Of a DNA stretch of 64,000 bases, positions 965 to 15,147 are shown one piece after another. Location of the stretch: NCBI RefSeq assembly GCF_003205575.1, contig NZ_PYBW01000011.1, positions 11,012-75,011 on the forward strand, in the 5' to 3' direction. Position 1 is the first letter of the stretch, and each line of letters opens with the position of its first letter. A model generated the notes under the pieces. It was not told the DNA's origin. It saw only the letters and a list, made by a program, of their open reading frames with translations, and made no database searches. The position numbers were made by a program, and so were the translations under genes. This stretch comes from Streptomyces tateyamensis (lineage in GTDB: Bacteria > Actinomycetota > Actinomycetes > Streptomycetales > Streptomycetaceae).

Positions 965-1744
965 GTGACTCGGTCCTTGCGCGAACAAGCTCTTCTGCTG
1001 CTTCGAGACGGAACCCCCAACGCTGACGCAGCGCGTCGACTCGGAGTGCCGAATGGCACTGTCGGCTCGTGGAAATTCGGGGATCGCGCCAGGCGGGGCG
1101 AGAATCCTGGCAGAAAGCGTTCAGTGTGCCCCACCCACTACGGGGACCAGCTCAACGAGCCCGCCTACTCCTACTTGCTCGGCCTGTACCTGGGCGACGG
1201 CCACATCCTGCAGCCCAAGGGGCGTCGCTACTTCCACCTCGCCGTTACCTGTGACGACAAGTGGCCCGGACACATGGACACCGTCGAGCAGGCCATGCGG
1301 GACGTCCTGCCGACCAACAGTCCCTTCCGCGTCCGCCGCACCGGGTGCCACGACGTCAAGATCTACTCCCAGCACCTGCCCTGCCTCTTCCCCCAGCACG
1401 GCCCCGGCAAGAAGCACGAGCGGCCGATCATCCTCGAACCATGGCAACAGACCATCGTGGACGCCCACCCCTGGGGCCTGTTGCGCGGCCTGCTCCACTC
1501 CGACGGCTGCCGGATCATCAACTGGACCAGCAAGACGGTCAACGGCGTCCCGAAGCGGTACGAGTACCCGCGGTACTTTTTCACCAACAAGTCCTCCGAC
1601 ATCATCGGTCTCTTCACCCGCACCCTCGATGCAGTCGGCATCCGTTGGAAGGCCGCCCGGCACCAGAACGGCGGCACCAACATCTCCATCGCCCGCGCCC
1701 CCGACGTCGCCCTCCTCGACCGTCACATCGGCCCCAAGCACTGA
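965..1744 (+). CDS. LAGLIDADG homing-endonuclease-like protein with N-terminal HTH
   Basis: A 259-residue protein if it starts at the GTG at 965. Residues 3-40 look like a Hin/sigma-type helix-turn-helix (ADAARRLGVPNGTVGSWK). Two LAGLIDADG-like helices follow at about 71-79 (LLGLYLGDG) and 171-181 (GLLRGLLHSDG), each with the expected acidic residue. This arrangement is known from free-standing monomeric LAGLIDADG proteins in streptomycetes, often annotated only as HTH proteins. The frame stays open upstream to a TTG at 863, 8 nt from the tRNA, and also has an ATG at 890. None of the starts has a clear Shine-Dalgarno sequence. Placement beside a tRNA fits a selfish or mobile gene. No intron or intein is visible in the tRNA itself. 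Confidence 0.75.
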   Translation: MTRSLREQALLLLRDGTPNADAARRLGVPNGTVGSWKFGDRARRGENPGRKRSVCPTHYGDQLNEPAYSYLLGLYLGDGHILQPKGRRYFHLAVTCDDKWPGHMDTVEQAMRDVLPTNSPFRVRRTGCHDVKIYSQHLPCLFPQHGPGKKHERPIILEPWQQTIVDAHPWGLLRGLLHSDGCRIINWTSKTVNGVPKRYEYPRYFFTNKSSDIIGLFTRTLDAVGIRWKAARHQNGGTNISIARAPDVALLDRHIGPKH

Positions 1745-1835
1745 TCCCCGCCCGCCTGAGGATCTTCCGCCCCGCCTGGGTATAAGTCCCCTGCGGCCTC
1801 GCCGACTTGCGGGCCCATGGCCAAAGGAGGAGACC

Positions 1836-2528
1836 ATGTCCGCAACGACGCACGGGGCCCGGTCGGTGCTGGTCTTCGATGTCAACGAGACGCTCAGCGA
1901 CTTCACCGCCCTCAGCGCCCGGTTCGAGGAGATCGGGGCGCCCGGCACGCTGATGCCGACCTGGTTCGCGGGGGTGCTGCGGGACGGGTTCGCGCTGACG
2001 GCGGCGGGGGCCTACGCGGACTTCGCGAGCCTCGCCCTGGACGGCCTCCGCACGCTGCTGCCGACCGTGCCGGGGTGGAGTGGTGACCTCGACAAGAGCG
2101 CCCGGCACATCCTGGACGGACTGGCCGAGCTCGACGTGCACCCCGATGTCCCGGACGGCGTGCGACGGTTGAGCGACGCCGGATTCCGGCTGGTGACGAT
2201 GACCAACGGCAATGCGGCCCTGACTAGGCGGTTGCTGGAGCGGGCGGGTGTGGCGGACCGCTTCGAGGCGCTGCTGGACGTGGGTGGGAGTCGTTGCTGG
2301 AAGCCGGCGCCGGCCGCCTACCGCTACGCGGTCGAGCGGGCCGCGGTGCGCCCGGAGCAGGCTCTGATGGTCGCGGTCCACCCCTGGGACATCGACGGCG
2401 CGCAGCGGGCGGGTCTGGGCGGGGCGTGGCTGCGGCGGGACGGGGCGGCGGACTACCCGCTGAGCATGTCTCGGCCGACCTATGGTGTGCGTGATCTGGT
2501 GGAGCTGGCCGAGGTGCTGACGGTGTAG
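1836..2528 (+). CDS. Haloacid dehalogenase, type II (HAD superfamily)
   Basis: A 230-residue HAD hydrolase. Motif I is VFDVNETLSDF with nucleophile D15. Motif II is MTNGNAAL, the conserved lysine is in KPAPAAYRYA, and the acidic motif is in HPWDIDGAQRAG. Length and motifs match type II L-2-haloacid dehalogenases, which hydrolyse 2-haloalkanoates through an aspartyl ester, but many family members act on other substrates. The ATG at 1836 follows AAAGGAGGAG at good spacing. The 3' end overlaps the convergent phosphopantetheinyl transferase by 49 nt. It may be unrelated to the halogenase-like gene in the neighbouring cluster. Confidence 0.85.
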   Translation: MSATTHGARSVLVFDVNETLSDFTALSARFEEIGAPGTLMPTWFAGVLRDGFALTAAGAYADFASLALDGLRTLLPTVPGWSGDLDKSARHILDGLAELDVHPDVPDGVRRLSDAGFRLVTMTNGNAALTRRLLERAGVADRFEALLDVGGSRCWKPAPAAYRYAVERAAVRPEQALMVAVHPWDIDGAQRAGLGGAWLRRDGAADYPLSMSRPTYGVRDLVELAEVLTV

Positions 2529-3277
2529 TGCGGCCCGAGCGGATGCGGATCCTGTTCCCAGGCCGTCGGCAGCAGGATCCGCTCGATCCGGCTCGTGGTG
2601 GCGAGTGCGGCGTGGTGGCCGGTGCCGAGGGGGCCGCTGGGCGGGAGGTCGTGGAGGTGGACGGCGTCCTGCGGCCAGCCGGCGGGCAGGTCTCCGGCGG
2701 GGCGCAGCGTTGGTCCGGCGGCGTCCAGGTGGGCGAAGCGGGCGGCGATCCCGTGGCCGGTCAGTTTGCTGCCGGCTTCCTTGCGGGTCCACAGCCGGAC
2801 GAAGGCGGCCGCGCGCGCCGCTTCGGGCAGGCGGGCCAGTTCCTGCTGCTCGGAGACGGTCAGTGTGTTGCGCGACAGTCGGCGTGTGGTCTGGGGGTCG
2901 GGTGTGGTGTCGATGTCGAGGCCGATGAGGCCTTGGGAGACGACGGCGGCGAGTACCCAGTGGCGGGTGTGTGCGACTGAGTAGTCGAGTTGTCCGATGG
3001 CTGCGGGGAGGCGGGGTCGGCCGTGTGCTGCTCCGCAGTGGTGGCAGGTGCGGTCGATGTGCAGTTGGTGGGCGGGGATGCCCAGGTAGTGGCTTGCCAG
3101 GGTGCGTTGGAGGGCGCGCGAGGTGGTGTAGGTGGCGCGCGGGGGTCCGGGCGGGAGTGTGTCGGCGTGGGTGGCTTCGTCCTGGGTGAGCAGTGTGCGC
3201 AGGGTCGGGGAGGAGGTGACGGGCCACGCCCACAGGTGGCAGTCGCCGGGGCGGGGTGGTGTTGGGGGTGGGGTCAC
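2480..3277 (-). CDS. 4'-phosphopantetheinyl transferase (Sfp type)
   Basis: A 265-residue Sfp-type transferase that moves phosphopantetheine from CoA onto the serine of carrier proteins. Diagnostic motifs are GLDIDTTPD (Mg-binding D121 and D123) and WTRKEAGSKLTGHG (W163, K166, E167, A168), plus the SVAHTRHW segment before them. The GTG start at 3277 overlaps the TGA of the upstream ceramidase-like gene as GTGA, so it is probably translationally coupled. It is the last gene of the second unit of the biosynthetic cluster and the natural activator of the ACP encoded at 14324-14647. Confidence 0.9.
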   Translation of the reverse strand: MTPPPTPPRPGDCHLWAWPVTSSPTLRTLLTQDEATHADTLPPGPPRATYTTSRALQRTLASHYLGIPAHQLHIDRTCHHCGAAHGRPRLPAAIGQLDYSVAHTRHWVLAAVVSQGLIGLDIDTTPDPQTTRRLSRNTLTVSEQQELARLPEAARAAAFVRLWTRKEAGSKLTGHGIAARFAHLDAAGPTLRPAGDLPAGWPQDAVHLHDLPPSGPLGTGHHAALATTSRIERILLPTAWEQDPHPLGPHYTVSTSASSTRSRTP

Positions 3278-4008
3278 GGGCTGACGGGCTGTGCCGTGCC
3301 GGCCGGGTCCGCGGTCTGGGTGTGGGTGGTGGCGGTCCGGGCGTGCCAGTGGTTGATGAGGGTGCGGGAGGTCAGGTAGACGAGCAGGCCGTCGCCGAGG
3401 TGCCAGAGGAAGTGGGTGCCGGTGGGCAGTGCTCCGCAGACGCGCTCGTCCAGGGTGCGGGCGGTCAGGGAGATCGCGAACACGAGCGTCGACCAGGCGA
3501 ACGGGGCGGCGTACGGGCGCAGTTCGGCGTCGGGCGAGCGGCGCAGGGTTGCGGTGATGCCGATCAGGAGCAGCAGGACGGGGATGTAGGTGCCGGACTT
3601 GTTGGGGATGTAGGGGCCGGCGACGGCTATGAACAGGGCGAGGAAGACGATGAAGGCGCCGACGCCGAGCAGGGCTTGCTTGATGGGCCGGCGGTGGAAC
3701 CAGAGCAGGTAGCTGCCGAGGTACCACAGGACGTAGAGGCCGATCGGTGCGACGTCGAGGACCTGGGCCCAGCGGGTGCCGATGGTGTGGAAGGCGAAGC
3801 TGCCCAGGCCGATGCAGACCATCAGGGGTGTGGTGAAGGCGATGCTGACGGGTGTTCTGCGGCCGGCGGCGCGGTCCGGGGCGAGCATCCGCCAGATCGC
3901 CCAGGCGGCGAGGAGGAAGGAGGCGTTGCTGATCGCGTTGACCGGCTCGGACCAGAAGGCCGCCGTGGTCCGCTCGCAGTAGTCGAAGACGTGCTCGTTC
4001 AGGTTCAT
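3274..4008 (-). CDS. Ceramidase-family (CREST) integral membrane hydrolase
   Basis: A 244-residue protein with about seven hydrophobic segments. The N-terminus has the alkaline-ceramidase signature (YCERTTAAFWSEPVNAISN). Then come GSFAFHTI with a conserved His, an Asp in VLDVAPIG, and HFLWHLGDGLLVY near the C-terminus, matching the Ser/His/Asp/His zinc-hydrolase residues of the CREST superfamily. Eukaryotic relatives cleave the N-acyl bond of ceramide. The bacterial substrate is unknown. Start ATG at 4008 overlaps the antiporter stop as ATGA, so the gene is part of one transcription unit with its neighbours. An N-acyl-amide substrate would be consistent with the FeeM-type gene upstream, but that is inference. 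Confidence 0.78.
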   Translation of the reverse strand: MNLNEHVFDYCERTTAAFWSEPVNAISNASFLLAAWAIWRMLAPDRAAGRRTPVSIAFTTPLMVCIGLGSFAFHTIGTRWAQVLDVAPIGLYVLWYLGSYLLWFHRRPIKQALLGVGAFIVFLALFIAVAGPYIPNKSGTYIPVLLLLIGITATLRRSPDAELRPYAAPFAWSTLVFAISLTARTLDERVCGALPTGTHFLWHLGDGLLVYLTSRTLINHWHARTATTHTQTADPAGTAQPVSP

Positions 4009-5297
4009 CGGCTGTTTTCCGTCAGTTCCTTGTCGGACTCCCGTGCCGTGCGGGGCTGTTGCGGGAGCGGTGGGACGTCGTCGGCCGGCTGGGCGGCGAT
4101 GGCGAAGCGTCTGGTGTCCAGGACCGGTCCTGCCATGGCGGTGGTGACCACGGCCATGACGACCATCATCGAGTAGACGGTGCTGTTGATCAGGTGGAGT
4201 TCGAGGCCGACCGAGAGGATGACGAGTTCGGTCAGGCCCCGCATGTTCATCAGCGCTGTCAGCGGCAGTGCGAGGCGCGGGTCCACGCCGGAGAGCCTGG
4301 CTCCGCCGTACACGCCGGCGGCCTTGCCGGCCACTGCCACCAGGAGGATGAGGGTGAGCGTGAGGAGGGAGGCGGGGCCGAGGCCGTGGAGGTCGACCTT
4401 CAGACCGGCGACGACGAAGTACAGCGGGAGCAGCAGGGCGCCGATGTGGTTGGCGCGTTCGGTCACGTGTCGGCGCAGGTCCTCGAACCCGCTGCGGGGC
4501 ATGACGGCGCCGAAGGCGAACGCGCCGAAGATGTAGTGCACGCCGAGCCATTCCGCGGCTGCGCAGGACGTCAGCAGGCCCACGACGAGGAGCGGGAACA
4601 GGGTGGGGGGCAGGCGGTCGCCGGCGCCGTCGGTTCGGCGGCCCAGCAGCCGTTCGAGCAGGGGTCGCACGACGACCAGCAGGACCAGCACGTAGACGGG
4701 CAGCAGGCTGATCCGCCACTGCGGGGTGGTGCCGAACAGCACCACGACGCCGGCCAGGGTGATCCAGGCCACCAGGTCGCCGAAGGCTGCGGAGACGAGG
4801 GCGAGGACTCCGATGGGGGTGGCGGTCAGCCGGCGGTCCGCGAGCACCCGTGCCAGGACGGGAAAGGCGGTGACGGACATGGCGATGCCGAGGAAGAGGA
4901 CGAAGCCGGTCTTCGATCCGGGGGCGTACTGCTTGGCCAGCGGCAGGGCGAGGAGGATGCCCAGGGCCAGCGGTACCGTGACCGACCCGGCGGCTACGCC
5001 GAGCGCGCTGCCCCGCAGTCCGCGCAGGAGGGTGTGTTCCAGCTCGTAGCCGAGGACGAACATGAACAGGGCCAGGCCCAGCGCGGCGAGCGCGCCGAGC
5101 AGGGGCTGGACATCAGGGGGTACCAGTGTGTGGCGCACCGACGCGGGCAGGAGGAGGGGGCCGCAGCAGACGCCGGCGACGATTTCGCCGACGACGGCGG
5201 GCTGGCGTGCTCTGCGGGCGAGGGAGCCGAAGAGTTTGGCCACCGCCAGCAGGACGGACACGCTGAGGAAGAAATGGACGGCCGTGGGGCTGTTCAC
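4005..5297 (-). CDS. Cation:proton antiporter (CPA2 family)
   Basis: A 430-residue membrane protein with about 12 transmembrane segments. CPA2/Kef-NapA signatures are RQPAVVGEIVAG near the N-terminus, LFMFVLGYELE, SVTAFPVLARVL, HYIFGAFAFGAVMPR and ALMNMRGLTELVIL near the C-terminus. The family exchanges Na+ or K+ for protons and is sometimes found in antibiotic clusters as an export or self-protection factor. It has no RCK/TrkA-N domain. GTG at 5297 overlaps the upstream MFS stop codon as GTGA, and its own stop overlaps the ceramidase-like start, so it sits inside a tightly coupled operon. Confidence 0.88.
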   Translation of the reverse strand: MNSPTAVHFFLSVSVLLAVAKLFGSLARRARQPAVVGEIVAGVCCGPLLLPASVRHTLVPPDVQPLLGALAALGLALFMFVLGYELEHTLLRGLRGSALGVAAGSVTVPLALGILLALPLAKQYAPGSKTGFVLFLGIAMSVTAFPVLARVLADRRLTATPIGVLALVSAAFGDLVAWITLAGVVVLFGTTPQWRISLLPVYVLVLLVVVRPLLERLLGRRTDGAGDRLPPTLFPLLVVGLLTSCAAAEWLGVHYIFGAFAFGAVMPRSGFEDLRRHVTERANHIGALLLPLYFVVAGLKVDLHGLGPASLLTLTLILLVAVAGKAAGVYGGARLSGVDPRLALPLTALMNMRGLTELVILSVGLELHLINSTVYSMMVVMAVVTTAMAGPVLDTRRFAIAAQPADDVPPLPQQPRTARESDKELTENSR

Positions 5298-6754
5298 GAG
5301 TTCACCACCGCGGGGGTTACGGGCCGGGCCGGTGGGGCCGGACGCTTGGCGCGGACGATCAGCGCGGCGACGAGCGCGCCGAGGGTCAGCAGGGCAACTG
5401 GCAGGTAGACGGCGTCCGCCAGGGCGCTGCCGAAGGCGGGTCTGAGCGCCACGGGGACAGCCGTGCTGCCGTCGCTTCCTGCGGCGAGGTCGGCGGGCAG
5501 GCCGCGGGCGGACATCCGGGAGGCGACCACGGCGCTCACGGCGGCGCTGCCGAGGACGGAGCCCAGTTGGCGGGTCGCGTTGTAGACGCCTGCGCCCGCA
5601 CCGGCCTGTTTGGGGGAGAGCCGGAGTGTGGCGGCCACGGCCAGTGAGGGCCAGATGCAGGCGTTGGCGAGGCCGGCCACTGCGGCTGCGACGAGGAAGA
5701 GGCCGACAGGTGAGTGGGGTGTCATCAGCAGTGAGAATCCGGCGAGCGTGGCGGCGAAGAGCGCGAGGCCGGTGACGGGTGCGACGCGTGGGTGCAGCCG
5801 GTCTCCGAACAGGCCGATGATCGGGACGAACACGATGGCCAGCAGTGCCATGGGGGCGAGCAGCAGTCCGGCCCTGGTGCCGGGCAGGTCGCGCACCGAC
5901 TCGAGGTAGAGGTAGAGCGGCACCATCACGGCGGCGACCGCGGCGGCGGCGAGGCCGACGGCCAGGGCCGCTGCGGCGAAGGCGCGGTCGCGGAAGATGC
6001 CCAGGGGCAGCAGTGGGTCGGTCGCGGTGCGGTGCTGGTGGGCGACGAAGGCGGCGAGGACCGCGACGCCGCCCGCGGCCGACCAGGAGGTCCAGCCGTG
6101 GCTGCCGCCCTCCTGGATGCCGAGGACCAGCAGCGACATGCCGGTGCTGCTGAGGGCGAGGCCGGTCAGGTCGAACCGGCGGGTGTGGGCGGGCAGCGTC
6201 GGCACGTACCGGACGGCCAGGGCGGATCCGGCGATCCCGACGGGGACGTTGACGTAGAAGATCCACTGCCAGCCGGCCTGGTCTACCAGGAATCCGCCGA
6301 GCAGGGGGCCCGCCAGGTTGGCGAGGCCGGCGACGGCGCCCCACAGGCTCATCGCGGCGCTTCGGCGCTCGGGTGGGAAGGTCTGGGTGATCACTGCCAT
6401 CGTCTGCGGGGTCACCAGGGCCGCGCCGATGCCCTGGACGGCGCGGGCGGCGATGAGCGCGCCGATGGACGGGGCCAGGCCGCAGGCCAGGGAGGCGGCG
6501 GTGAACACGGCGATTCCGGCGAGGTACACCCGCTTGGGGCCGGCGTGGTCACCGAGTCGGCCGGCGGGCAGCAGCAGCGCGGCGAAGGTGAGCAGGTAGG
6601 CGCTGGTGGCCCAGACGAGGGAGCTGACGTCGGTTCGGAGGCTTTTCATGATGACCGGGTTGGCGACGGCCACCACGGTCATGTCCAGCACCACCATGAA
6701 GTAGCCGACGATCAGTGCGATCAGCGCTGGCCACGGACGGGATCGATCGGCCAC
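5294..6754 (-). CDS. MFS drug exporter, DHA2 (14-TM) family
   Basis: A 486-residue major facilitator protein with about 14 hydrophobic segments. DHA2 landmarks are VVLDMTVVAVA in TM1, GRLGDHAGPKR between TM2 and TM3, ARAVQGIGAALVTPQ in TM4, and GPLLGGFLVDQAGWQWIFYVNVPVG in TM5-6. Such proteins use the proton gradient to expel amphipathic compounds and commonly mark antibiotic clusters. The GTG at 6754 lies 69 nt below the FeeM-type gene stop. It is the likely exporter for the cluster product, with the CPA2 antiporter coupled behind it. Confidence 0.92.
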   Translation of the reverse strand: MADRSRPWPALIALIVGYFMVVLDMTVVAVANPVIMKSLRTDVSSLVWATSAYLLTFAALLLPAGRLGDHAGPKRVYLAGIAVFTAASLACGLAPSIGALIAARAVQGIGAALVTPQTMAVITQTFPPERRSAAMSLWGAVAGLANLAGPLLGGFLVDQAGWQWIFYVNVPVGIAGSALAVRYVPTLPAHTRRFDLTGLALSSTGMSLLVLGIQEGGSHGWTSWSAAGGVAVLAAFVAHQHRTATDPLLPLGIFRDRAFAAAALAVGLAAAAVAAVMVPLYLYLESVRDLPGTRAGLLLAPMALLAIVFVPIIGLFGDRLHPRVAPVTGLALFAATLAGFSLLMTPHSPVGLFLVAAAVAGLANACIWPSLAVAATLRLSPKQAGAGAGVYNATRQLGSVLGSAAVSAVVASRMSARGLPADLAAGSDGSTAVPVALRPAFGSALADAVYLPVALLTLGALVAALIVRAKRPAPPARPVTPAVVNS

Positions 6755-6823
6755 GGAGGGGTCCTCACTGGAACGTGCCGGCAGGGCTTTGGCGGGATAC
6801 GGCGGTCGGGACGGGTGTACCGC

Positions 6824-8206
6824 TCAGTGGAGGCGGCTGACGGTCCGCTTCACCCAGAACAGGGCGGTCCTGGGACCGCGCACGAGCCGGGTGAGGGCGT
6901 CGGGCGAGGAGGTGCGCATGTGGTGGTCGACCACCGGCCCGAACACGACCTGCCAGGGCAGCCACCGGCGGCCGAGCCGCCCGAGCTCCTGCCCGATGTC
7001 GATCGCCATGACGTGCACGGTTTCCTTGCTGTACGGGTGCGTCTTGACGATGGGCAGCCGTTTGCCGCCGATCCGCTCGTAGGCCGGGACGAGCTTCTCG
7101 ATGGCGTCCAGCACCAGGTAGCGGCAGTCGAGGTTGAAGGCCAGTCGGGCCGTCTCCCGGAAGAGCGCGAGGACGACGCCCGCGCCGCGGTGCGCGGGGT
7201 CGATGGCCAGCCGGGACACTTCGACGAACCGGCCGCGCCAGATGTGGAGGGGCAGGCCGACGGTGCCGGTCTCGATCTCGCTGAGGGCGCGGTCCCCGCC
7301 GTTGACCACGACCCGGCCGGTGCCGACCGGTTTCTCCCCCAGCAGGCACAGGAAGGTGACGGCGTGGGCGTCGAGCTCGTCGGCCACTTCGGTGGTGTCC
7401 TGCACGCCGGCGAGCCGGCCGAAGCGCTGGTTGCCGGCCAGTCGCACGTCGAGGGCCTGACGGTAGGTCAGGTCGTCGGCCACGGTGCGCACCGAGAGGT
7501 AACGGGTCATCAGGGAGGGCCGCACGCCGGTGTCCCGCAGCTCGGCGAACCCGAAGCCCGGGTCCGTCCCGGCCAGCACGGTCGCGCTGGTGCGCATCGA
7601 GGCCCGGTCCACGATCCGGAAGCCGAACCGGGTGGCGGCCGCCTCCTGGCGGCAGTCGGTCAGCTGGACGGTGAGCCGCCAGTGGCCGAGCCACGGCAGC
7701 CAGGCGTCGAGCACGACCGCCATCCCGGGGGCGAGGCAGCGGCCGGGGTCGTCGGTGGTGAACTGCCCCTGGTAGGGCGACAGTCGCAGCAGTTCGACCT
7801 CCTGCCGGCGGCCGAACAGGACGGTGCTGTCCAGCCGGGCGGGGATCGGCCGGGGCAGTGGCCGCGTCCGGTGGGCGCCGAGGCCTGCGGACAGGCGGAC
7901 CACGATGCGGCCGGCCTGCTCGTCCAGGCTGTAGTCGGTGGTGAACAGCGGCACCAGTCGGCGCCGCCGCAGCCGGGCGGCGTCGGCCCGGAAGGCGATG
8001 GCCAGCCGCCGGCCGGGCCGCAGGACGGCCAGCCGTTGCGGCTCGGGGACGGACAGCACCAGGGTGCCGTCCGCGCCGCGCTCCTCCAAGGTGGCCGTCA
8101 CCCGGTGCGGGCCCGACCAGACCAGCACTTCCGGGCGGTGAAGATCGGTCTTCCAGTACGCGTACGCCGCGCCGCGGTCGGTCGACTCCGCGTGAACGAG
8201 TTCCAT
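6824..8206 (-). CDS. FeeM-type N-acyl amino acid synthase with PilZ-like N-terminal region
   Basis: A 460-residue two-part protein. The first 210 or so residues form two beta-rich segments resembling YcgR-N/PilZ, with an arginine cluster in the first and DSTVLFGRRQEVELLRLS in the second. The canonical c-di-GMP residues look degenerate. Residues about 215-430 match the FeeM/GNAT acyltransferase fold (VSRLAIDPAHRGAGVVLALF, then CRYLVLDAIEKLVPAYER). FeeM enzymes transfer an acyl chain from acyl-ACP to an amino acid amine. ATG at 8206 has GGGGAG upstream. A hairpin pair at 8247-8339 separates this gene from the preceding hydrolase, so it probably heads its own transcript. Substrates are unknown. 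Confidence 0.75.
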   Translation of the reverse strand: MELVHAESTDRGAAYAYWKTDLHRPEVLVWSGPHRVTATLEERGADGTLVLSVPEPQRLAVLRPGRRLAIAFRADAARLRRRRLVPLFTTDYSLDEQAGRIVVRLSAGLGAHRTRPLPRPIPARLDSTVLFGRRQEVELLRLSPYQGQFTTDDPGRCLAPGMAVVLDAWLPWLGHWRLTVQLTDCRQEAAATRFGFRIVDRASMRTSATVLAGTDPGFGFAELRDTGVRPSLMTRYLSVRTVADDLTYRQALDVRLAGNQRFGRLAGVQDTTEVADELDAHAVTFLCLLGEKPVGTGRVVVNGGDRALSEIETGTVGLPLHIWRGRFVEVSRLAIDPAHRGAGVVLALFRETARLAFNLDCRYLVLDAIEKLVPAYERIGGKRLPIVKTHPYSKETVHVMAIDIGQELGRLGRRWLPWQVVFGPVVDHHMRTSSPDALTRLVRGPRTALFWVKRTVSRLH

Positions 8207-8246
8207 CGTGCGTCGCTCCCCCTGCCAAGCGCTCCGCTGGTGGTGC

Positions 8247-8274
8247 GGCGCCGCGCCGTGTCCGGCGCGGCGCC
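8247..8274 (-). terminator. Perfect 11-bp hairpin upstream of the FeeM-type gene
   Basis: GGCGCCGCGCC at 8247-8257 pairs perfectly with 8264-8274 around a 6-nt loop. It lies between the terminator of the first unit and the FeeM-type start. It could be a backup terminator or a leader structure of the second unit. Confidence 0.55.
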
Positions 8275-8311
8275 CTGTGCGGCCGGGTGCGCAGCCGCAT
8301 GTCGGACGTGG

Positions 8312-8339
8312 CCCCCGCACCCTTCGGCGGGTGCGGGGG
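8312..8339 (-). terminator. Strong hairpin after the hydrolase gene
   Basis: CCCCCGCACCC at 8312-8322 pairs with GGGTGCGGGGG at 8329-8339 around a TTCGGC loop, 12 nt beyond the hydrolase stop. This fits an intrinsic terminator of the high-GC type without a long U-tract, and marks the end of the ACP-to-hydrolase unit. Confidence 0.7.
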
Positions 8340-8351
8340 ACGGTGTCCTGG

Positions 8352-8906
8352 TCAGCCGGCGAGCTGCTGCTGGAAGAGGGTCCAGCCCTCTGCCCAGTCG
8401 CCCAGGCCCGCCGAGGAGTTGATGTGGCCCTTGGGCCCGACGTTCACCAGGGTGGCGCCGAGGCGTTCGGCCACCCCCGTGGCGTGCTCCACGCTGCTGT
8501 ACGGGTCGTCCGCGCTGGCGACCACGGTGACCGGGAAGGGCAGTGCGCCGCGGTACGCGGCCGCGCTGAAGCCCTCCGCGTCAGCGGGGAAGTTCTCCCC
8601 GTCGGGGTCCGGGGCCGCGACCAGGAAGGCGCCGGTCAGGTCCCCGGCCGCCTCGGGGTGCTCACCGGCCCATTCGCCGAGCAGCGTGCAGCCGAGGCTG
8701 TGGGCGATGACCACCTTGGGGCCCTGCACCGCGGCGAGCGCGTCCGCGAGGTCCTTCACCCACGCGTCCCGGACGGGGCGGTCCCAGGAGTCGTGTTCGA
8801 CCCACACGCTGTTCTGGGCCGACCGCTCGTACCACTGCCGCTGCCAGTGGTCGGGGCCGGAGTTGTCGATCCCCGCGAGGAACACGTACGTCGGGTTCTG
8901 TGCCAT
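8352..8906 (-). CDS. RBBP9/YdeN-family alpha/beta hydrolase
   Basis: A 184-residue compact alpha/beta hydrolase. The nucleophile elbow is VIAHSLGC (S70). The acid is probably the Asp in ASADDPYSS, and the histidine is in GPKGHINSS near the end. The N-terminal GIDNSGPDHWQRQW is typical of the RBBP9/YdeN serine hydrolases. It starts 2 nt after the halogenase-like gene stop and is the last gene of the first cluster unit. In a carrier-protein pathway it could release or edit acyl intermediates as a type II thioesterase would, but it is not a classical TE II, so that role is inference. Confidence 0.85.
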   Translation of the reverse strand: MAQNPTYVFLAGIDNSGPDHWQRQWYERSAQNSVWVEHDSWDRPVRDAWVKDLADALAAVQGPKVVIAHSLGCTLLGEWAGEHPEAAGDLTGAFLVAAPDPDGENFPADAEGFSAAAYRGALPFPVTVVASADDPYSSVEHATGVAERLGATLVNVGPKGHINSSAGLGDWAEGWTLFQQQLAG

Positions 8907-8908
8907 GG

Positions 8909-10624
8909 TCACACCTCGTACTCGACGCCGACGCCGTCGAAGCGCAGGCGGTCCTGGATGAGGACAGGCTGGTCGTTCTTGTCGAACCCGCTGACCAGCC
9001 CCGCCTCCATCAGCCGGATGACGATCTGCGAGCTGAGTTCCTGCCGGTCGAGCTCGCTGAGCTGACGGATGACGTCCTTGTAGGAGACGGTCTCCTTGAG
9101 CAGGGTCTGGAAGACCTCGCGGTGGGACTCCTCCAGCGGCCACTTGGTCATGTCCTGACCGTTCTCGTTGGCCAGCACCTGCTTGGGCTCCAGCCGGAAG
9201 CTGGTCGACTCGATCTTGTAGTACGGCTGGAGCCGGACCTCGGTGCCGTTCCAGCGGAGCCGCTTGATGCTGTTGAGCTGCTTGGTGAGCTGGCTGATCC
9301 AGCGGACCCGGGCGACGTTCAGCTCGTCGTCGCTGAACTCGTCGCTCAGCTCCTGCCGCTGGTGCCGGCCGATGGCGATCATCGTGGATGCGCGGTCCCG
9401 GAAGTCGGCCACGGACCAGTCCTCGCTCGCGTGGTCGATCGCGGACAGCCGCTCGAACCAGCTCTTGCGGTTGAGCCGGTCGTCGTCGGCCTCGCTGATC
9501 CTGCGCTTGGTCCAGAACTCCGACTCGGGTTCGGTGAAGGATGCGAAGGTGTAGAAGGAGGCGAGGAACTCGTGGTACTGCTCGTAGGTCTCGCGGTAGG
9601 TGCGGTTGTACCAGGCGTGCACCTGCTCCTGCTCGTCCTGGTGCGCGGTGATCCGGTCGATCGCGGCGGCGGCCGAGACGGCGGACTGGCTGGCGAGGTG
9701 GACGCCCTGCGAGAAGAGCGGGTCGGTGAAGCAGGCCGCGTCCCCGCAGAGGAAGAACCGGTCGCGGGAGAAGAGGTCGGACTCGTACGACCAGTCGTGG
9801 ACGATGCGCACCTCGTCGACCATCGGCGCGTCGCCCAGCAGGTCCGTGGCGCGCTTGGCCTTGGCGAGGGTCTCGCGGTAGAAGCGCTCCGGGCCCAGCT
9901 CCTTGACCTCGGCCGCCTTGGACCGGTCGACCACCAGGCCGACGCTGTACAGGTCGTCCTTGACCGGGATCATCCACACCCAGCCGTCCTCGAAGGTGAT
10001 CGAGTAGGTGGTGCCCTTGAGGTCACCGGTGAAGGGGTCCTCGCGCTTGAAGTACGACCAGATCGCGAAGTTCTTGTAGAACTCGTCGTAGCGGCGGACC
10101 TTGAGCTGGCGGGCCAGCGGACTGTTCGCGCCGCCGGCGTCGATGACGAAGTCACTGGTCACGGTGCGGGTCTCGGTGCCCTCGCGGACGGTGAGCGTGA
10201 CGGAGTCGGCCGCGGAGATGTCGACGTCGGTGACCGCGGTGCCCTCGTGCACGCAGATGCCGCGCTCGCGGACCTCGTCCACCAGGAGCTGGTCGAACTC
10301 CTCGCGCTTGACCTGGATGGCGTGGTCGAAGACCCACGGGGAGGTGCGGGGCGTGGTGAACGAGAACGTCCACGGCGCCTGGTCCTGACCCCACAGGAAG
10401 GTCGCCGACGGCTTCTTCACGTAGTTCTGGGCGTCGATCCTGTCCTGCAGGCCGAGCCGGTTGAGGATCGACAGGGTGCCGGGCAGGAACGACTCGCCGA
10501 TGCGGTAGCGCGGGAAGTGGTCCCGCTCGAAGACCTCCACGTCATGGCCGAGCTTGTGCAGGGTCAGGGCAGCCACGCAGCCTGCCGGGCCCGCACCGAT
10601 GATGGACACCTTCGCTCGCTTCAC
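8909..10624 (-). CDS. Flavin-dependent halogenase-like FAD oxidoreductase
   Basis: A 571-residue flavoprotein. GAGPAG (residues 10-15) is the FAD dinucleotide motif. RIGESFLPGT follows. WVWMIP (215-220) matches the WxWxIP motif that marks flavin-dependent halogenases, and CGDAACFTDPLFSQGVHLA (about 293-311) matches the second FAD motif of the same group. The last 100 residues form a charged helical C-terminal domain. Halogenases need FADH2 from a separate reductase, and none is encoded in the cluster. Some relatives with this motif are ordinary monooxygenases, so halogenation is probable, not certain. Genes for an ACP and a ligase upstream suggest a carrier-tethered substrate. Confidence 0.8.
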   Translation of the reverse strand: MKRAKVSIIGAGPAGCVAALTLHKLGHDVEVFERDHFPRYRIGESFLPGTLSILNRLGLQDRIDAQNYVKKPSATFLWGQDQAPWTFSFTTPRTSPWVFDHAIQVKREEFDQLLVDEVRERGICVHEGTAVTDVDISAADSVTLTVREGTETRTVTSDFVIDAGGANSPLARQLKVRRYDEFYKNFAIWSYFKREDPFTGDLKGTTYSITFEDGWVWMIPVKDDLYSVGLVVDRSKAAEVKELGPERFYRETLAKAKRATDLLGDAPMVDEVRIVHDWSYESDLFSRDRFFLCGDAACFTDPLFSQGVHLASQSAVSAAAAIDRITAHQDEQEQVHAWYNRTYRETYEQYHEFLASFYTFASFTEPESEFWTKRRISEADDDRLNRKSWFERLSAIDHASEDWSVADFRDRASTMIAIGRHQRQELSDEFSDDELNVARVRWISQLTKQLNSIKRLRWNGTEVRLQPYYKIESTSFRLEPKQVLANENGQDMTKWPLEESHREVFQTLLKETVSYKDVIRQLSELDRQELSSQIVIRLMEAGLVSGFDKNDQPVLIQDRLRFDGVGVEYEV

Positions 10625-10671
10625 TACTGCTCTCCTCGCAGGACTTCGGGGGGACTTGTCGGGTGGCTCGG

Positions 10672-11313
10672 TCAGAGGGACTTGAGGGACTTGACGCGGT
10701 TCGGCGCGAGGTACGAGAACCCGGTCGCAGCGTTATCGAAGAGCGTCAGGCCGGCCTGGAAGCGGCACTTGTCGCCGATCTCCACGCCGGGTGCGACCGT
10801 GCAGCTGAGCCCGAAGAAGTTGTCGTCGCCGATCTCCACGCTGTTGCCGCAGTGGAAGTTGGGGGCGACGAAGTTGTTCGACCCGACGCCGGAGTGGTGT
10901 CCGAAGCTGCTCCGGTAGTTCACGACGTTGAAGTCGCCGAACACCGTGTTCACTCCCACGTAGTTGTCGGGGCCGATGATGTTGCCGGTGCCGCGCAGCG
11001 CCGCCGGGTCGACGCGGGAGGACGGGTGGACGATGTTGTCCGCCACCAGGGCGTGCTTGGCGATGACGTCGTCGATCAGCTGCCGGCGCAGCGCGACCTC
11101 CGAGAGCGCGAGCAGCACCCGGCTGCCGGGCTCGGGCGCGAACTCGGCCAGGTCGACGGTCAGTTCAGCCGGAGCGTGGGTCGGCTCGCCCGCCACCGCG
11201 ACGTACTGCCGGATGCGGTAGCCTGCCTGCGGGTCGGCCGCGGTGACGTCCTCGAGGTAGCGGGCCACCTCCAGGGCGAACTTGCCGGCCCCCAGGAGAA
11301 CGACGTCCTTCAC
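10672..11313 (-). CDS. NeuD/PglD-like hexapeptide-repeat acyltransferase
   Basis: A 213-residue protein. It has an N-terminal nucleotide-binding-like fold (VVLLGAGKFALEVARYL) and a left-handed beta-helix of hexapeptide repeats from about residue 92 (VHPSSRVDP, GTGNIIGPDN, VGSNNFVAP, VEIGDDNFFG, VEIGDKCRF). The likely catalytic His is in FGHHSGVG. Family members O- or N-acylate sugars from acetyl-CoA or another acyl donor. No sugar-nucleotide genes lie in this cluster, so the acceptor may be different. GTG at 11313 overlaps the ligase stop as GTGA. Confidence 0.8.
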   Translation of the reverse strand: MKDVVLLGAGKFALEVARYLEDVTAADPQAGYRIRQYVAVAGEPTHAPAELTVDLAEFAPEPGSRVLLALSEVALRRQLIDDVIAKHALVADNIVHPSSRVDPAALRGTGNIIGPDNYVGVNTVFGDFNVVNYRSSFGHHSGVGSNNFVAPNFHCGNSVEIGDDNFFGLSCTVAPGVEIGDKCRFQAGLTLFDNAATGFSYLAPNRVKSLKSL

Positions 11314-12689
11314 GGCAGGATCCTCCTCTTCTTGAACCGCTCGGAGACCGAGAGCTCCTCGACCACCTGCACCTTGCTGGGGATCTTGAAGGGCTCGACC
11401 TTCCCGTCGAGGAACTCGTGGACGTGCTTGCGCGCCTCGGTGCGGCTCAGTGCGCCGACGGGCTGGATGTCGACGCAGACCGACTGTCCGGTGATCGAGT
11501 TCGGCTTGCCGTAGACCACGCAGTCGGCGATCAGCGGGCTGCCCAGCAGCAGGGATTCCAACTCCAGCGGGAGGACCTTCTCGCCACCGACGTTGATGAT
11601 CTCCTTGGCGCGGCCCCTGACCTTGAGGTAGCCCTCGGCGTTCTCCTCCACCAGGTCACCGGTGCGGAACCAGCCGTCCTCGGTGAGCGAGTCACTGGGG
11701 TAGTTGAGGTAGCCGAGGAACTGCGTCGGGCTCTTCAGCTGCAGTTCCCCCTCGACGACGCGGTACTGCACCTTCTCGTCGGAGATCTGGAAGTAGGTGC
11801 TGCTGGAGGACTCGCTCGTGGTGGTCGAGATGCCGGTCTCACTGGTTCCGAAGGTCTGCAGCAGCCTGGCCCGCGGGAACGCCGCGTGCACCCGCTTGAG
11901 CAGTTCCTCGGGCATGGGTTCGGTGCCGTAGGTGATCAGACGCAGGCCCGACAGGTCGAACTTCTCGGGGTAGCCGCCGATCAGGACGAGGTTGAGGAAG
12001 GTGGGGCTGGTCGGCAGCAGACGGATGCCGTACGACTCGACCAGCGCGCAGATCTCGTCCGGCGTGCGCTTCTCGGGAACGACCGCGGTTCCGCCCACCT
12101 TCAGCACACCCAGCAGCGAGTTGATGCCGCCGATGTGGTCGAAGAGCAGGAACATGAGGATGTTCTGCGCCTTGGCCCCGACCCGGGTCCGGGTGCCGAC
12201 CTTCTCCTCGACCAGGGAGTCGAGATTGTGCAGGATCGCCTTGGGGGCGCCGGTGCTGCCGCTGCTGAGCAGGACCAGGCCGGCCGCTCCGGCCTCGATC
12301 AGCGGCCGGTAGGCAGCCTCGGCCTCGGCCGCGTCGCCGGCCATGGGTTCGATGGTGAGGTCGCCCCGGCCGTCGTTCCCGTCGGGCTTGAGCAGGTGCC
12401 TCGGGTGGCAGGAGCCGGTCACCGTGGCGTGGGTGCCCTCGGTGAAGGTCACGACCGGCACCACGACGTTCCGGCCCAGGTAGAGCGCGAGGAACGCCGC
12501 GACGGACCGGAAGGAGAAGTCGGCGTTGAGGACGACGACCTCGTGCGGGCGGACCCCGCCCGCAGCCAGCTGCTCCTCGATCCGCCGGATCTCCGCGACC
12601 AGTTCGCGGTACGAGTACGTGTCCCCCCGGTGGATCACGGCCGGACGGTCCCCGAACTGCTCAAGTTTGGTGATGAGTTGGCTTCGCAT
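11310..12689 (-). CDS. AMP-dependent acyl/aryl synthetase (adenylate-forming ligase)
   Basis: A 459-residue member of the ANL superfamily. Core motifs are LLSSGSTGAPKA (A3, residues about 141-151), TFGTSETG (A5 region), DGWFRTGDL (A7) and GRAKEIINVGGEKVLPLELE (A8). The C-terminal lysine region is RFKKRR. It is shorter than typical acyl-CoA ligases (about 500-550) because the N-terminal domain is compact. It should adenylate a carboxylic acid and load it onto the ACP of this cluster or onto CoA. Its substrate cannot be read from the sequence. ATG at 12689 shares one base with the SDR stop (TGATG). Confidence 0.88.
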   Translation of the reverse strand: MRSQLITKLEQFGDRPAVIHRGDTYSYRELVAEIRRIEEQLAAGGVRPHEVVVLNADFSFRSVAAFLALYLGRNVVVPVVTFTEGTHATVTGSCHPRHLLKPDGNDGRGDLTIEPMAGDAAEAEAAYRPLIEAGAAGLVLLSSGSTGAPKAILHNLDSLVEEKVGTRTRVGAKAQNILMFLLFDHIGGINSLLGVLKVGGTAVVPEKRTPDEICALVESYGIRLLPTSPTFLNLVLIGGYPEKFDLSGLRLITYGTEPMPEELLKRVHAAFPRARLLQTFGTSETGISTTTSESSSSTYFQISDEKVQYRVVEGELQLKSPTQFLGYLNYPSDSLTEDGWFRTGDLVEENAEGYLKVRGRAKEIINVGGEKVLPLELESLLLGSPLIADCVVYGKPNSITGQSVCVDIQPVGALSRTEARKHVHEFLDGKVEPFKIPSKVQVVEELSVSERFKKRRILP

Positions 12690-13387
12690 CAGTTCACCCC
12701 GCCCAGGAAGAGCGTCTCTCCGGTGACGAACCCCGACCGTTCGGAGACCAGGAATTCGACGGGTCCGACGAGATCCGCCATCGTGCACATACGTTTGATC
12801 GCCTGACGTTCGATCAGGGAGTCGACCATCCCTTCGGGGAGCGTGCGGGTGAGCACGGTCCGCACCGGGGGCAGGCCGAGACTGTTGACCCGGATGCCGA
12901 AGCCGGCCAGCTCCTTGCTCATGACCCGGGTCAGCTGTTCCACCGCGGCCTTGCTGGCCGCGTAGACCAGTTGGCCGTCCAGCGCCCAGGGCACCGCGAC
13001 CGTCGAGATGTTGAGGATCGCCGCCGAGCCCGAGGGACTCTTCTGGAGCAGCTTCGCCCCCTCCCGGCTGCAGCTGAGCACCGAGAAGAAGTTGAGGTCG
13101 AAGATGTCCCGGGCGACGCTGTCCGGGGTCATCATGAAGTGGTTCATGTTGGACCTGCCGGCGCTGTTCACCAGCGCGTCCAGGTGGCCGAACTCCCGTC
13201 GGACCGCCCGGAACATGGACTTCACCGCGCTCGGGTCGGTGAGGTCCAGCCCGTGGTGCCGGTAGCCCGGGTGATCCAGACCTGTCGACTTCCTGCTGCA
13301 CCCGACGACCTGGTGCCCCTGGTCGAGGAAGTGTTCGGCAAGAGCCCTGCCCACACCGGTGCGCGTACCGGTAATCAGAATAATCAT
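12689..13387 (-). CDS. Short-chain dehydrogenase/reductase (FabG-like)
   Basis: A 232-residue classical SDR. TGTRTGVG (residues 6-13) binds NAD(P), NSAG is at 74-77, catalytic Ser is near 128, and Tyr142/Lys146 lie in VYAASK. An arginine after the glycine motif and the CSRKS segment suggest NADPH preference. It probably reduces a keto group on an ACP- or CoA-bound intermediate. It begins 2 nt after the GNAT stop and ends overlapping the ligase start, so it is in the same transcript. Confidence 0.87.
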   Translation of the reverse strand: MIILITGTRTGVGRALAEHFLDQGHQVVGCSRKSTGLDHPGYRHHGLDLTDPSAVKSMFRAVRREFGHLDALVNSAGRSNMNHFMMTPDSVARDIFDLNFFSVLSCSREGAKLLQKSPSGSAAILNISTVAVPWALDGQLVYAASKAAVEQLTRVMSKELAGFGIRVNSLGLPPVRTVLTRTLPEGMVDSLIERQAIKRMCTMADLVGPVEFLVSERSGFVTGETLFLGGVN

Positions 13388-13389
13388 GG

Positions 13390-14289
13390 TCAGTGCAGCC
13401 GATAACCGATCAGCAGCGGCAGGGAGTAGAGCGCCGGGCCGATGTCCTGCGCCGTCAGATCCTTGGACTTGTACTGGGAGGGCACCTCACGGGTGACGAC
13501 CTTGGCGAACGCGGGGGCGCCCCGCTGGTCGAGGAGGTCTGCCAGCTCGGCGTGGTCGATGACGACGAACGCGGCGCCCAGGCGCAGGCACAGGTCCAGG
13601 CGCAGCCGGTCGATGACGTCGAGCAGCATCGGCTTGTTGCTCGCGTAGAGGATCCGGCCGAACGGGACGTACTTGCGCAACCGGAGCTTCTTGACGACGA
13701 GGTAGAGGTAGTCGGTGCTGCCACGACGCATGACGAGGTAGTGGCGGCAGTCCAGATTCTCGTGGTCGAGGAAGATCTTCCGGTCGGCCTCGTCCAGATG
13801 CTGGATGATCAGGTGCTTTCGCGTCTCCAGCCGGTAGCCTGGACTCAGGGTCCGAGGTGTCGGCACCGGCAGGAACTGCAGGACCTTTGTCTCCAGGTCC
13901 GCCCAGCCGAACTTCTTACTGATGTCGTAGACGGTCCGGGTGGGAGTGTAGTTCAGCAGCGTGGCTTTTCGGATCGACATCACCGGAAGGAAGAGCTTCA
14001 TGCTCTCGTTCCGGTAGGCGTCCTTCACGAACCACGAGTGGATCTCGCAGAACTTGTGCCGCCGCCCGTCTATGTCACGTTCGGTGAAAAGCGTCCCGAG
14101 GAATCCGACGACCTCGCTGCCGTCCTCCATGACATAGCCGTAATACCCCTCGTTGCCGCCCCACTGCGGCTGGAACATCCGCCGGCGCGACTCGAACGGG
14201 ATCCATGACGAATTAAGCGTCGAATCCCGGAGCAGTGGGTAGACCTGGTGCAGGTCCTCGGCCACCGCCCTGCGTACCGTCACCGGCAC
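13390..14289 (-). CDS. GNAT-family acyltransferase
   Basis: A 299-residue protein with a GNAT fold in its first half: TVRRAVAEDLHQVYPLLRDS as the start helix, GYVMEDGSEVVGFLGTLF as the beta hairpin, and CEIHSWFVKDAYRNESMKL at the acyl-CoA loop, where the usual Q/RxxGxG/A is not clear. The second half (about 150-299) looks like a second degenerate GNAT unit. This resembles the double-GNAT proteins found next to ACPs in lipid-like pathways. GTG at 14289 has GGGAGGGAG upstream. Acyl donor and acceptor are unknown. Confidence 0.72.
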   Translation of the reverse strand: MPVTVRRAVAEDLHQVYPLLRDSTLNSSWIPFESRRRMFQPQWGGNEGYYGYVMEDGSEVVGFLGTLFTERDIDGRRHKFCEIHSWFVKDAYRNESMKLFLPVMSIRKATLLNYTPTRTVYDISKKFGWADLETKVLQFLPVPTPRTLSPGYRLETRKHLIIQHLDEADRKIFLDHENLDCRHYLVMRRGSTDYLYLVVKKLRLRKYVPFGRILYASNKPMLLDVIDRLRLDLCLRLGAAFVVIDHAELADLLDQRGAPAFAKVVTREVPSQYKSKDLTAQDIGPALYSLPLLIGYRLH

Positions 14290-14323
14290 GTGGCACTCCC
14301 TCCCCGCCCCGCCGGCGGCAGTC

Positions 14324-14647
14324 TCAGACCGCGCTTCCCTGGCCGGACTCGGCGCCGACCAGGACCATCTCCTCTTCGATGAACTCGATCAGCCGCTCGA
14401 CCCGGCTGAACGGGCTGATCCGCCGCGACACGGCCTTCTCGGAGGTCAGCGAGATCTCGAGGTCGTACTCGTCCTCGATCGCCTCCTCGACCAGGGTCAG
14501 GAAGTTGACCAGGTGCATGGAATCGAAGACACCCGCGTCGCCGTACAGGCTGACATTCAGCAGGTCATCGGTCGGGATCTTCTCGTCCCGCCGCTCATTG
14601 ATCTCGGCAATGACATTGCCGATCACTCCCAAAAGGCGGTCGTCCAC
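14324..14647 (-). CDS. Acyl carrier protein-like
   Basis: A 107-residue helical acidic protein. The phosphopantetheine site is GVFDSMHLVNF with S43, close to the canonical DSL motif, followed by an acidic helix (LTLVEEAIEDEYDLE). GTG at 14647 has AAAGGGGA 7 nt upstream; an ATG at 14698 would add 17 residues but has no ribosome site. It is the first gene of the cluster, with its modifying enzyme probably the Sfp-type transferase at 2480-3277. No ketosynthase or acyltransferase of PKS type is present, so it likely carries a pre-made acid loaded by the neighbouring ligase. Confidence 0.85.
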   Translation of the reverse strand: MDDRLLGVIGNVIAEINERRDEKIPTDDLLNVSLYGDAGVFDSMHLVNFLTLVEEAIEDEYDLEISLTSEKAVSRRISPFSRVERLIEFIEEEMVLVGAESGQGSAV

Positions 14648-14699
14648 GACACGGTCCCCTTTCCCGACAGCGAGAGCCGGCCGGCCGCTCCCCGACATG

Positions 14700-14796
14700 A
14701 CTCAATCCGTAATCACATGCTCGCGTACCAATAATCTCCACGCAACGGAAAGCCTGCTACGAGGAGATTAACAATTCCTCACACGTGCTAAAGCAC
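14700..14796 (-). promoter_or_regulatory. AT-richer leader and putative operator upstream of the ACP operon
   Basis: The 90 or so bases before the ACP gene are clearly AT-richer than anything around them, as expected of a promoter reading leftward. At 14785-14796 lies the palindrome GTGCTAAAGCAC, which could be an operator. No exact -10/-35 pair stands out, and no regulator gene is present in the cluster. Confidence 0.35.
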
Positions 14797-15016
14797 GGGC
14801 ATTGTCTGGCTATATCCGATTTGGCGTCGGTTCGTCGGCTGGGTCTGGCCGCCGTGCGGCTCGCCCCACTCGTCCGGGTCGGCCCGGAATCCTCGGAAGC
14901 CCCGCATGCGCCGAAGTGCGGGCAGGGTGGGGCGGTATCCGATTTGCATCGATTCGTCGGCGGGCCTGCCCGCCGTGCGGCCCACCCCGGCCCTGCGGGT
15001 CGGCCCACAGTCCTCG
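14788..15016. repeat. Imperfect tandem repeat in intergenic DNA, period about 123 bp
   Basis: Two copies, about 14788-14896 and 14911-15016, share a core that begins TATCCGATTTG (14813 and 14936), runs through CCGCCGTGCGGC and GGGTCGGCCC, and ends TCCTCGG. Identity is roughly 75% by eye with small indels. Six-frame reading gives no convincing protein. The 500 bases from 14648 to 15147 hold no gene that I can support apart from this repeat and the ACP promoter. Confidence 0.7.
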
Positions 15017-15147
15017 GCATCCACAAACGGCCAGGTCACGGACGGGTGAGGATTTGGTGATCCTTCGCCAGATTCCTGCCGGTACACCCGGTTTGCCCGC
15101 TTCTCGGGGGTTGCCATGACAAGCCGGCCCACCTACCTTCGGGGCTC

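Follow-up and report, generated by a model that had tools for sequence, protein, structure and literature searches.

What can a gene cluster make that pairs a dedicated carrier protein and a halogenase with three candidate acyltransferases? This question is raised by twelve minus-strand genes at 2480-14698 of a 64,000-nucleotide (nt) stretch of Streptomyces tateyamensis DNA (contig NZ_PYBW01000011.1), hereafter the window, whose numbering is used for all positions (Table 1). Our analysis suggests, with a probability of roughly 60%, that they form a mobile unit that makes a dihaloacetyl group, most likely dichloroacetyl, on its own acyl carrier protein (ACP) and passes it by its own N-acyltransferases to one or more amine acceptors other than the arylamine of chloramphenicol.

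A CmlS module within a twelve-gene unit

An initial annotation made from the letters alone had assigned families to the twelve genes and had found no ketosynthase, no polyketide synthase acyltransferase domain, and no condensation domain of nonribosomal peptide synthetases. Pfam and NCBIfam profile searches agree with the families, and likewise find none of these three among the 12 proteins. The same annotation held that overlaps of 1-4 nt link most genes, for which "most" is just right: 6 of the 11 junctions overlap, by 1 nt between the short-chain dehydrogenase (SDR) and the ligase, and by 4 nt each at ligase/NeuD, CmlS/hydrolase, MFS/antiporter, antiporter/ceramidase, and ceramidase/phosphopantetheinyl transferase (PPTase), while the remaining five are separated by gaps of 34, 2, 47, 145, and 69 nt. 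Promoter-like sites were not seen, and terminator-like sites were not in excess. The ligase start is better set at 12689, giving a protein of 459 residues, and the ACP start is placed near 14647 because homology with three related Streptomyces loci (L013, L016, and L017) ends at 14641-14657. The ACP falls below every Pfam and NCBIfam cut-off in the profile searches, and matches the ACPs of chloramphenicol-type clusters around the conserved serine motif (FDSM/FESM).

The halogenase exceeds the cut-off of the CmlS equivalog model (Table 1), also scores 192.1 bits with CmlS_C and 144.3 bits with Trp_halogenase, and aligns end to end over all 571 residues with the solved CmlS structure 3I3L (3i3l_A, E 1e-281), which marks it as a full CmlS orthologue. 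We take Lys71, Asp277, and Tyr350 to be the CmlS residues of interest, by number and by role; all three are kept in 34 of 34 aligned CmlS rows, a set that includes the window and in which three loci are entered twice. A passage in PMC6864650 describes the CmlS flavin as bound to an aspartate. The predicted role of a CmlS-type gene is to make the dichloroacetyl group.

The ACP, SDR, ligase, and CmlS genes lie on one strand in the order cmlM-J-K-S, with the GNAT and NeuD genes interspersed. For S. venezuelae, passages in PMC4249514 state that the roles in dichloroacetylation "remain obscure", with cmlM (ACP), cmlJ (SDR), cmlK (ligase), cmlT, and cmlS as the likely genes, and list cmlL as a PPTase, cmlN as an antiporter, and cmlF as an efflux pump. 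The initial annotation had not recognized its gene set from any described pathway. This does not hold, since four of the genes correspond to the cmlM-J-K-S set (passages in PMC4249514) and the halogenase is a CmlS orthologue; what stands is that, in the literature searched, we found no description of their combination with GNAT, NeuD, and FeeM. The annotation was right in seeing a carrier-protein cluster, whose product is probably a small molecule of the halogenated N-acyl kind.

Table 1. Features of the island and their supporting evidence, in window coordinates
Feature	Position	Strand	Evidence
Genomic island between tRNA-Leu(CAA) side and GT2-pyruvate kinase side	1743..15130	.	Empty site in L070
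Acyl carrier protein, CmlM homologue	14324..14647	-	Open reading frame readable to 14698; FDSM motif
GNAT-superfamily protein, degenerate acyl-CoA P-loop	13390..14289	-	Acetyltransf_1 19.5 bits, below cut-off 20.7
Short-chain dehydrogenase, CmlJ homologue	12689..13387	-	PF13561 136.7 bits
Adenylate-forming ligase, CmlK homologue	11310..12689	-	PF00501 119 bits
NeuD-like hexapeptide acyltransferase	10672..11313	-	TIGR03570 85 bits, below cut-off 160.8
CmlS flavin-dependent halogenase	8909..10624	-	NF033113 equivalog 1094.6 bits, above cut-off 900
Small serine hydrolase, AHSLG motif	8352..8912	-	Ser_hydrolase PF06821 153.4 bits
FeeM-type N-acyltransferase with N-terminal YcgR/PilZ-like region	6824..8206	-	PF21926 43.3 bits, cut-off 27
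DHA2-family MFS exporter (kind of CmlF)	5294..6754	-	TIGR00711 269.6 bits, above cut-off 230.2; MFS_1 195.2 bits
CPA2-type cation/proton antiporter (kind of CmlN)	4005..5297	-	Na_H_Exchanger PF00999 164.8 bits
Ceramidase-like membrane protein	3274..4008	-	Ceramidase PF05875 48.7 bits, above cut-off 32.5
Sfp-type phosphopantetheinyl transferase (kind of CmlL)	2480..3277	-	ACPS-type PF01648 43 bits
Type II haloacid dehalogenase (convergent gene next to the unit; perhaps its thirteenth member)	1866..2528	+	TIGR01428 171.4 bits, above cut-off 125.4

Recurrence of the unit in streptomycetes and on Rhizobium plasmids

Five loci, including the window, make up what we call the window type. All 12 genes recur in the same order in S. 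achromogenes (L013), S. roseolus (L016, in which the PPTase match splits into two pieces), and Streptomyces sp. ISL-100 (L017), all three of which keep the ceramidase-like gene, and Streptomyces sp. WELS2 (L014) shows the first seven genes, its contig breaking off behind the hydrolase. CmlS is also found, at 64% identity, in plasmid records of Rhizobium sp. T136, T1470, and T1473, which are typed conjugative by prediction. These strains have since been named R. favelukesii and come from Medicago and Melilotus nodules, according to PMC12981098. The two loci read from these plasmids (L076 and L077, on NZ_CP088011.1 and NZ_CP149874.1), those of T136 and T1473, have the order ACP, GNAT, SDR, ligase, NeuD, CmlS, hydrolase, FeeM, which is that of the first eight window genes; GNAT is 47% and FeeM 39% identical to the window, and the T136 FeeM homologue reaches 33.1 bits with PF21926, over the cut-off of 27. 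No match to the MFS, antiporter, ceramidase, or PPTase genes was found in the T136 and T1473 loci. The initial annotation had treated its two halves as one cluster, a view that would fall if they never occurred together elsewhere. They do: because the 12-gene order recurs in three Streptomyces genomes and the eight-gene order on two Rhizobium plasmids, the halves belong together, co-occurring across phyla. Hydrolase and FeeM are fused in T1473 into a single 651-residue frame, and T1470 is annotated alike at that place; the two are probably partners.

A CmlS tree of 32 rows, built without the Rhizobium sequences, groups the window with L013 and L014 (support 100/98), then with L016 (97/92). Together with a group of ectoine-type loci described below, these four make up a set (97/92), to which L017 attaches as an outer branch (96/89). 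The window type is therefore not necessarily a single clade, and may have given rise to the ectoine type.

CmlS modules beside different acceptor genes

A scan of genome contigs gave 27 CmlS loci. The locus comparison comprised 34 rows, from which L005 and L007 were dropped as having the same CmlS stretch as L026 and L038, leaving 32 distinct loci including the window; further copies of the same places (L003, L006, L008-L012, L042, L044, and L045) were left out. The ligase is present in 32 of 32 (47-87% identity in the 31 others), and the ACP and the SDR in 31 each (tblastn 42-84% and 56-88% identity, respectively, in 30 of the 31 others). L004, which is 4.7 kb long, accounts for the miss in both cases and shows the ligase alone of the three. 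ACP, SDR, and ligase precede CmlS in the same order in 30 of the 31 other loci, with NeuD and sometimes GNAT interspersed. A small hydrolase adjoins CmlS in 11 of the 32, as it does on the two Rhizobium plasmids.

This common core sits with at least four other acceptor sets, ectoine genes among them. Seven distinct loci hold homologues of CmlP, CmlA, and CmlI, and are thus chloramphenicol-type clusters; between them and the window, ACP, SDR, ligase, and CmlS share 60-70% identity, and none of the seven has a match to GNAT, FeeM, or NeuD. Four loci (L024, L025, L033, and L038) place the CmlS module with a CmlH-like protein, an ATP-grasp ligase, and an amino-acid permease, with no CmlA or CmlI match; these are probably not chloramphenicol clusters. 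In six others (L015, L018, L019, L036, L040, and L043), the module is accompanied by a free-standing condensation protein, an MFS protein, and a large ATP-grasp protein, of 823 aa in L015, as would suit another product type. CmlS modules also occur in other surroundings in S. cyaneus (L030, with weak SbnA/SbnB-like and NRPS-like matches), Pseudomonas piscis (L039), and Nocardia bovistercoris (L035); these three and L004 were placed in none of the types.

In the ectoine type (L020, L022, L023, and L041), the CmlS module lies among EctC, EctD, and EctA-like genes, and L021 shows the EctA-like gene only. EctD of L020 is over its cut-off (TIGR02408, 383.6 versus 336.5 bits) and the EctA-like protein of that locus just under (116.4 versus 120.6). 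In one genome of this kind (G378), EctC occurs again at a separate place, so the CmlS-linked EctC is an extra copy there. Known EctA and EctC relatives work on acetylated diaminobutyrate, and by analogy a two-carbon acyl group on a diamino acid would be a natural fit; the four loci predict a dichloromethyl ectoine. A Rathayibacter locus (L034) joins GNAT, FeeM, and the CmlS module to SbnA, SbnB, and LysE, with SbnA and SbnB over their cut-offs (353.4/349.95 and 391/326.9), which points to diaminopropionate synthesis. Such diaminopropionate genes and the dapdiamide-type amide antibiotics count among the closest known systems. The GNAT copy at L034:1289-2169 appears to shift frame near its end.

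Insertion as a genomic island

The related locus L070 matches the window at 1-1742 (in three pieces) and from 15131 onward, with 811 nt between, and L071 matches 41-729 and from 15130; the window holds 13.4 kb between 1742 and 15131. This pattern marks the unit and the adjoining haloacid dehalogenase gene as a genomic island inserted near a tRNA-Leu gene (783-856), which lies 0.9 kb outside the island edge and is the sole match in an RNA family search of window 1-22000. The last 15 bases of the tRNA occur once in the window, with no second copy as an attachment repeat. Within the 22 kb compared, L013 is collinear with the window from 1829 to 14657 and nowhere else, a stretch that includes the dehalogenase (82% identity), which adjoins the unit there also.

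Two neighbouring genes were rejected as members: the GT2 gene at 15148-16152, which is matched in all 70 genomes searched from the genus, and the open reading frame at 1124-1744, which lies to the left of the unit common to L013 and part of which is found at the empty site in L070. In window 14777-15022, between the ACP and GT2 genes, a stretch of about 122 bases occurs in two copies that match imperfectly (70-82%, in three blocks).

The island genes are rare. CmlS was found in 10 of 394 genomes sampled from the taxonomic family and, over the cut-off, in 1 of 396 from the phylum, the strain's own. Alignment searches of the phylum sample likewise returned only the own genome for FeeM (1/396), and for GNAT the own genome and distant relatives in the small genomes G422 and G533 (3/396), both of which are without CmlS over the cut-off. 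Among 70 genomes of the genus, GNAT at E ≤ 1e-10 and the dehalogenase at E ≤ 1e-50 were each found in one. Phage records gave no CmlS match.

Candidate acyltransferases

The GNAT P-loop reads YRNES in place of the usual acyl-CoA motif, R/QxxGxG/A (alignment A1), a change that would suit acyl-ACP as the donor in place of acyl-CoA, or else a loss of activity. Its AlphaFold model resembles the tandem GNATs 5kf1 and 2wpw and N-myristoyltransferases. In Foldseek searches, the model of the FeeM protein returns FeeM itself (2g0b, E 3.4e-6) and 2rde (E 4.3e-8), its N-terminal part matching VCA0042 and YcgR in fold. As both models are of low confidence (mean pLDDT, the predicted local distance difference test, of 64.0 for GNAT and 67.6 for FeeM) and the template modelling scores are low, these fold matches are supportive only. 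PilZ receptors of cyclic di-GMP carry the motifs RxxxR and D/NxSxxG; the second reads RLSPYQG here, which by eye is not canonical (alignment A2), so control by cyclic di-GMP is possible but not supported. The predicted function of FeeM is N-acyl transfer from the ACP to an amino acid.

NeuD is present in 18 of the 32 distinct CmlS loci and CmlH in 11, never together. This mutual exclusion looked as if one replaces the other, but the CmlS tree gathers every locus with CmlH, along with L030 and L004, into a single clade of 13 rows (100/99), so the exclusion is weak evidence and may reflect one event.

Proposed function and its alternatives

In the scheme that we propose, the PPTase would arm the ACP, the CmlK-type ligase would load a small carboxylate onto it, and the CmlJ-type SDR would bring it to an oxidation state at which its alpha carbon can enolise. 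CmlS, carrying covalently bound flavin adenine dinucleotide and a lysine chloramine, would then chlorinate this carbon twice. The small hydrolase, and perhaps the NeuD-like protein, would trim or relay the haloacyl group, and GNAT and/or FeeM would attach it to an amino-acid amine, the acceptor perhaps being a diamino acid. Export of the product, presumably an N-dichloroacetyl amino-acid-type compound, would fall to the MFS protein, and the neighbouring dehalogenase would destroy spilled haloacid. The gene families, the kinship of the ACP-SDR-ligase-CmlS block, the conserved gene order, the linkage of the halves, and the island are observed; the halogenated nature of the product, its acceptor, the order of steps, and the parts assigned to the hydrolase, NeuD, and dehalogenase are tentative, as would be any part for the ceramidase-like protein and the antiporter. 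The two-carbon reading of the haloacyl group has two grounds, homology to the chloramphenicol module and the sister clusters with EctA-like and EctC acceptor genes; the diamino-acid acceptor draws on the Rathayibacter SbnA/SbnB genes and the ectoine parallel. For the window itself such an acceptor is a guess, since SbnA and SbnB have no match in window 1-22000 and the genome's SbnB lies elsewhere.

Several observations weigh against this scheme. With its degenerate P-loop, the GNAT may be inactive, and the GNAT and FeeM models are of low confidence, as noted above. Three candidate acyltransferases are present (GNAT, NeuD, and FeeM), none of them singled out for any substrate, and NeuD may not be the final transferase, because it adjoins an EctA-like enzyme in the ectoine-type loci. 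Known FeeM enzymes use long acyl chains, and a short haloacyl donor is an assumption. SbnB exceeds its cut-off in the strain's genome (415.9 bits) only at the unlinked site G000:C67:49712-50683, where it is the sole family match among 8 open reading frames scanned, in frames that are probably wrong. Within the stretches compared, the dehalogenase adjoins the unit in the window and L013 only, with no match in L016, in L017, or in either Rhizobium locus. Finally, passages in PMC4249514, PMC8407142, and PMC4227530 show that even in chloramphenicol biosynthesis it is not settled on what CmlK and CmlS act, nor how the dichloroacetyl group is built.

Could the acyl group be longer? The ligase might load a fatty or 3-hydroxy acid, the SDR convert it to a 3-oxoacyl-ACP, and CmlS dichlorinate C2, so that FeeM would place the whole chain on an amino acid, giving a chlorinated, signal-like N-acyl amino acid. 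The FeeM domain over its Pfam cut-off, the additional Foldseek matches of the FeeM protein to the acyl-homoserine lactone synthases BjaI and EsaI, and the SDR gene directly preceding the ligase gene are all compatible with such a pathway. However, the core is 60-70% identical to that of loci whose pathway yields dichloroacetyl, a two-carbon acyl group suits the ectoine-type sister loci, and the hydrolase could cleave a longer intermediate, so we regard the longer chain as unlikely. More improbable still is a cryptic halogenation, known in other systems, in which chlorine added on the ACP is later displaced, for example by ring closure, and the final product is free of halogen. The presence in the island of a haloacid dehalogenase of type II would suit it; this gene is, as said, without a match in L016, L017, and the Rhizobium loci, and type II dehalogenases act on free 2-haloacids.

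A complete chloramphenicol cluster was rejected, as CmlP, CmlA, CmlI, and CmlH homologues have no match in window 1-22000 and CmlA_N has none in the whole genome (nor in 14 control genomes, although L026 scores with the same model in a separate search). The same searches leave only a very slight chance that the arylamine genes of a chloramphenicol pathway lie elsewhere in the genome, and the lack of GNAT, FeeM, and NeuD matches in the seven chloramphenicol-type loci also speaks against it, even though 7 of the 12 genes have counterparts in kind in the chloramphenicol cluster. The gap of 145 nt between hydrolase and FeeM would allow two unrelated operons that adjoin by chance. This is highly improbable and was rejected on their recurrence in other genomes: three Streptomyces genomes share the order, two Rhizobium plasmids keep it across the gap, with the genes on either side fused in one, and GNAT and FeeM lie beside the module in Rathayibacter also. 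The most likely reading remains transfer of a dichloroacetyl group from the ACP to an amino-acid-type acceptor.

Significance and comparison with known systems

To our knowledge, hardly any natural product besides chloramphenicol carries a dichloroacetyl amide. Our comparison suggests a broader hypothesis, to which we give somewhat less than even odds, where the chloramphenicol dichloroacetyl module is a general and exchangeable cassette for an acyl warhead. In the window it would feed FeeM and GNAT, and the N-dichloroacetyl amino-acid metabolites so made would be a new class, common to streptomycetes and nodule rhizobia. Its sister versions would serve diaminopropionate genes, ATP-grasp or condensation enzymes, and the enzymes of ectoine synthesis, the last yielding a dichloromethyl ectoine. 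There is a real chance that these are an undescribed class of halogenated metabolites; a literature search, with subscription papers mostly outside its reach, returned no description of this gene combination or of a chlorinated ectoine. The prediction is of unknown chlorinated metabolites, one of them encoded on predicted conjugative plasmids of Medicago and Melilotus nodule rhizobia. Compact clusters that share an ACP-SDR-ligase-CmlS core and differ in their acceptor genes would also be simple systems in which to separate halogenation from release.

The FeeM N-acyl amino acid synthase has its own carrier, FeeL, and the window resembles this system in pairing a FeeM domain with a dedicated ACP. 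It differs in that the window FeeM carries a YcgR/PilZ-like N-terminal region and is linked to a halogenase module and a ligase. Closer in gene content is the S. venezuelae chloramphenicol cluster as listed in passages of PMC4249514, with ACP, SDR, ligase, and CmlS in the same order and a PPTase, antiporter, and exporter of the same kinds. None of the 12 window genes is of a kind listed there for cmlB-E, however, and the window adds NeuD, GNAT, the hydrolase, FeeM, and the ceramidase-like protein. With regard to diaminopropionate biosynthesis by SbnA and SbnB, the likeness lies in the Rathayibacter relative, which couples these genes to the same module together with GNAT and FeeM.

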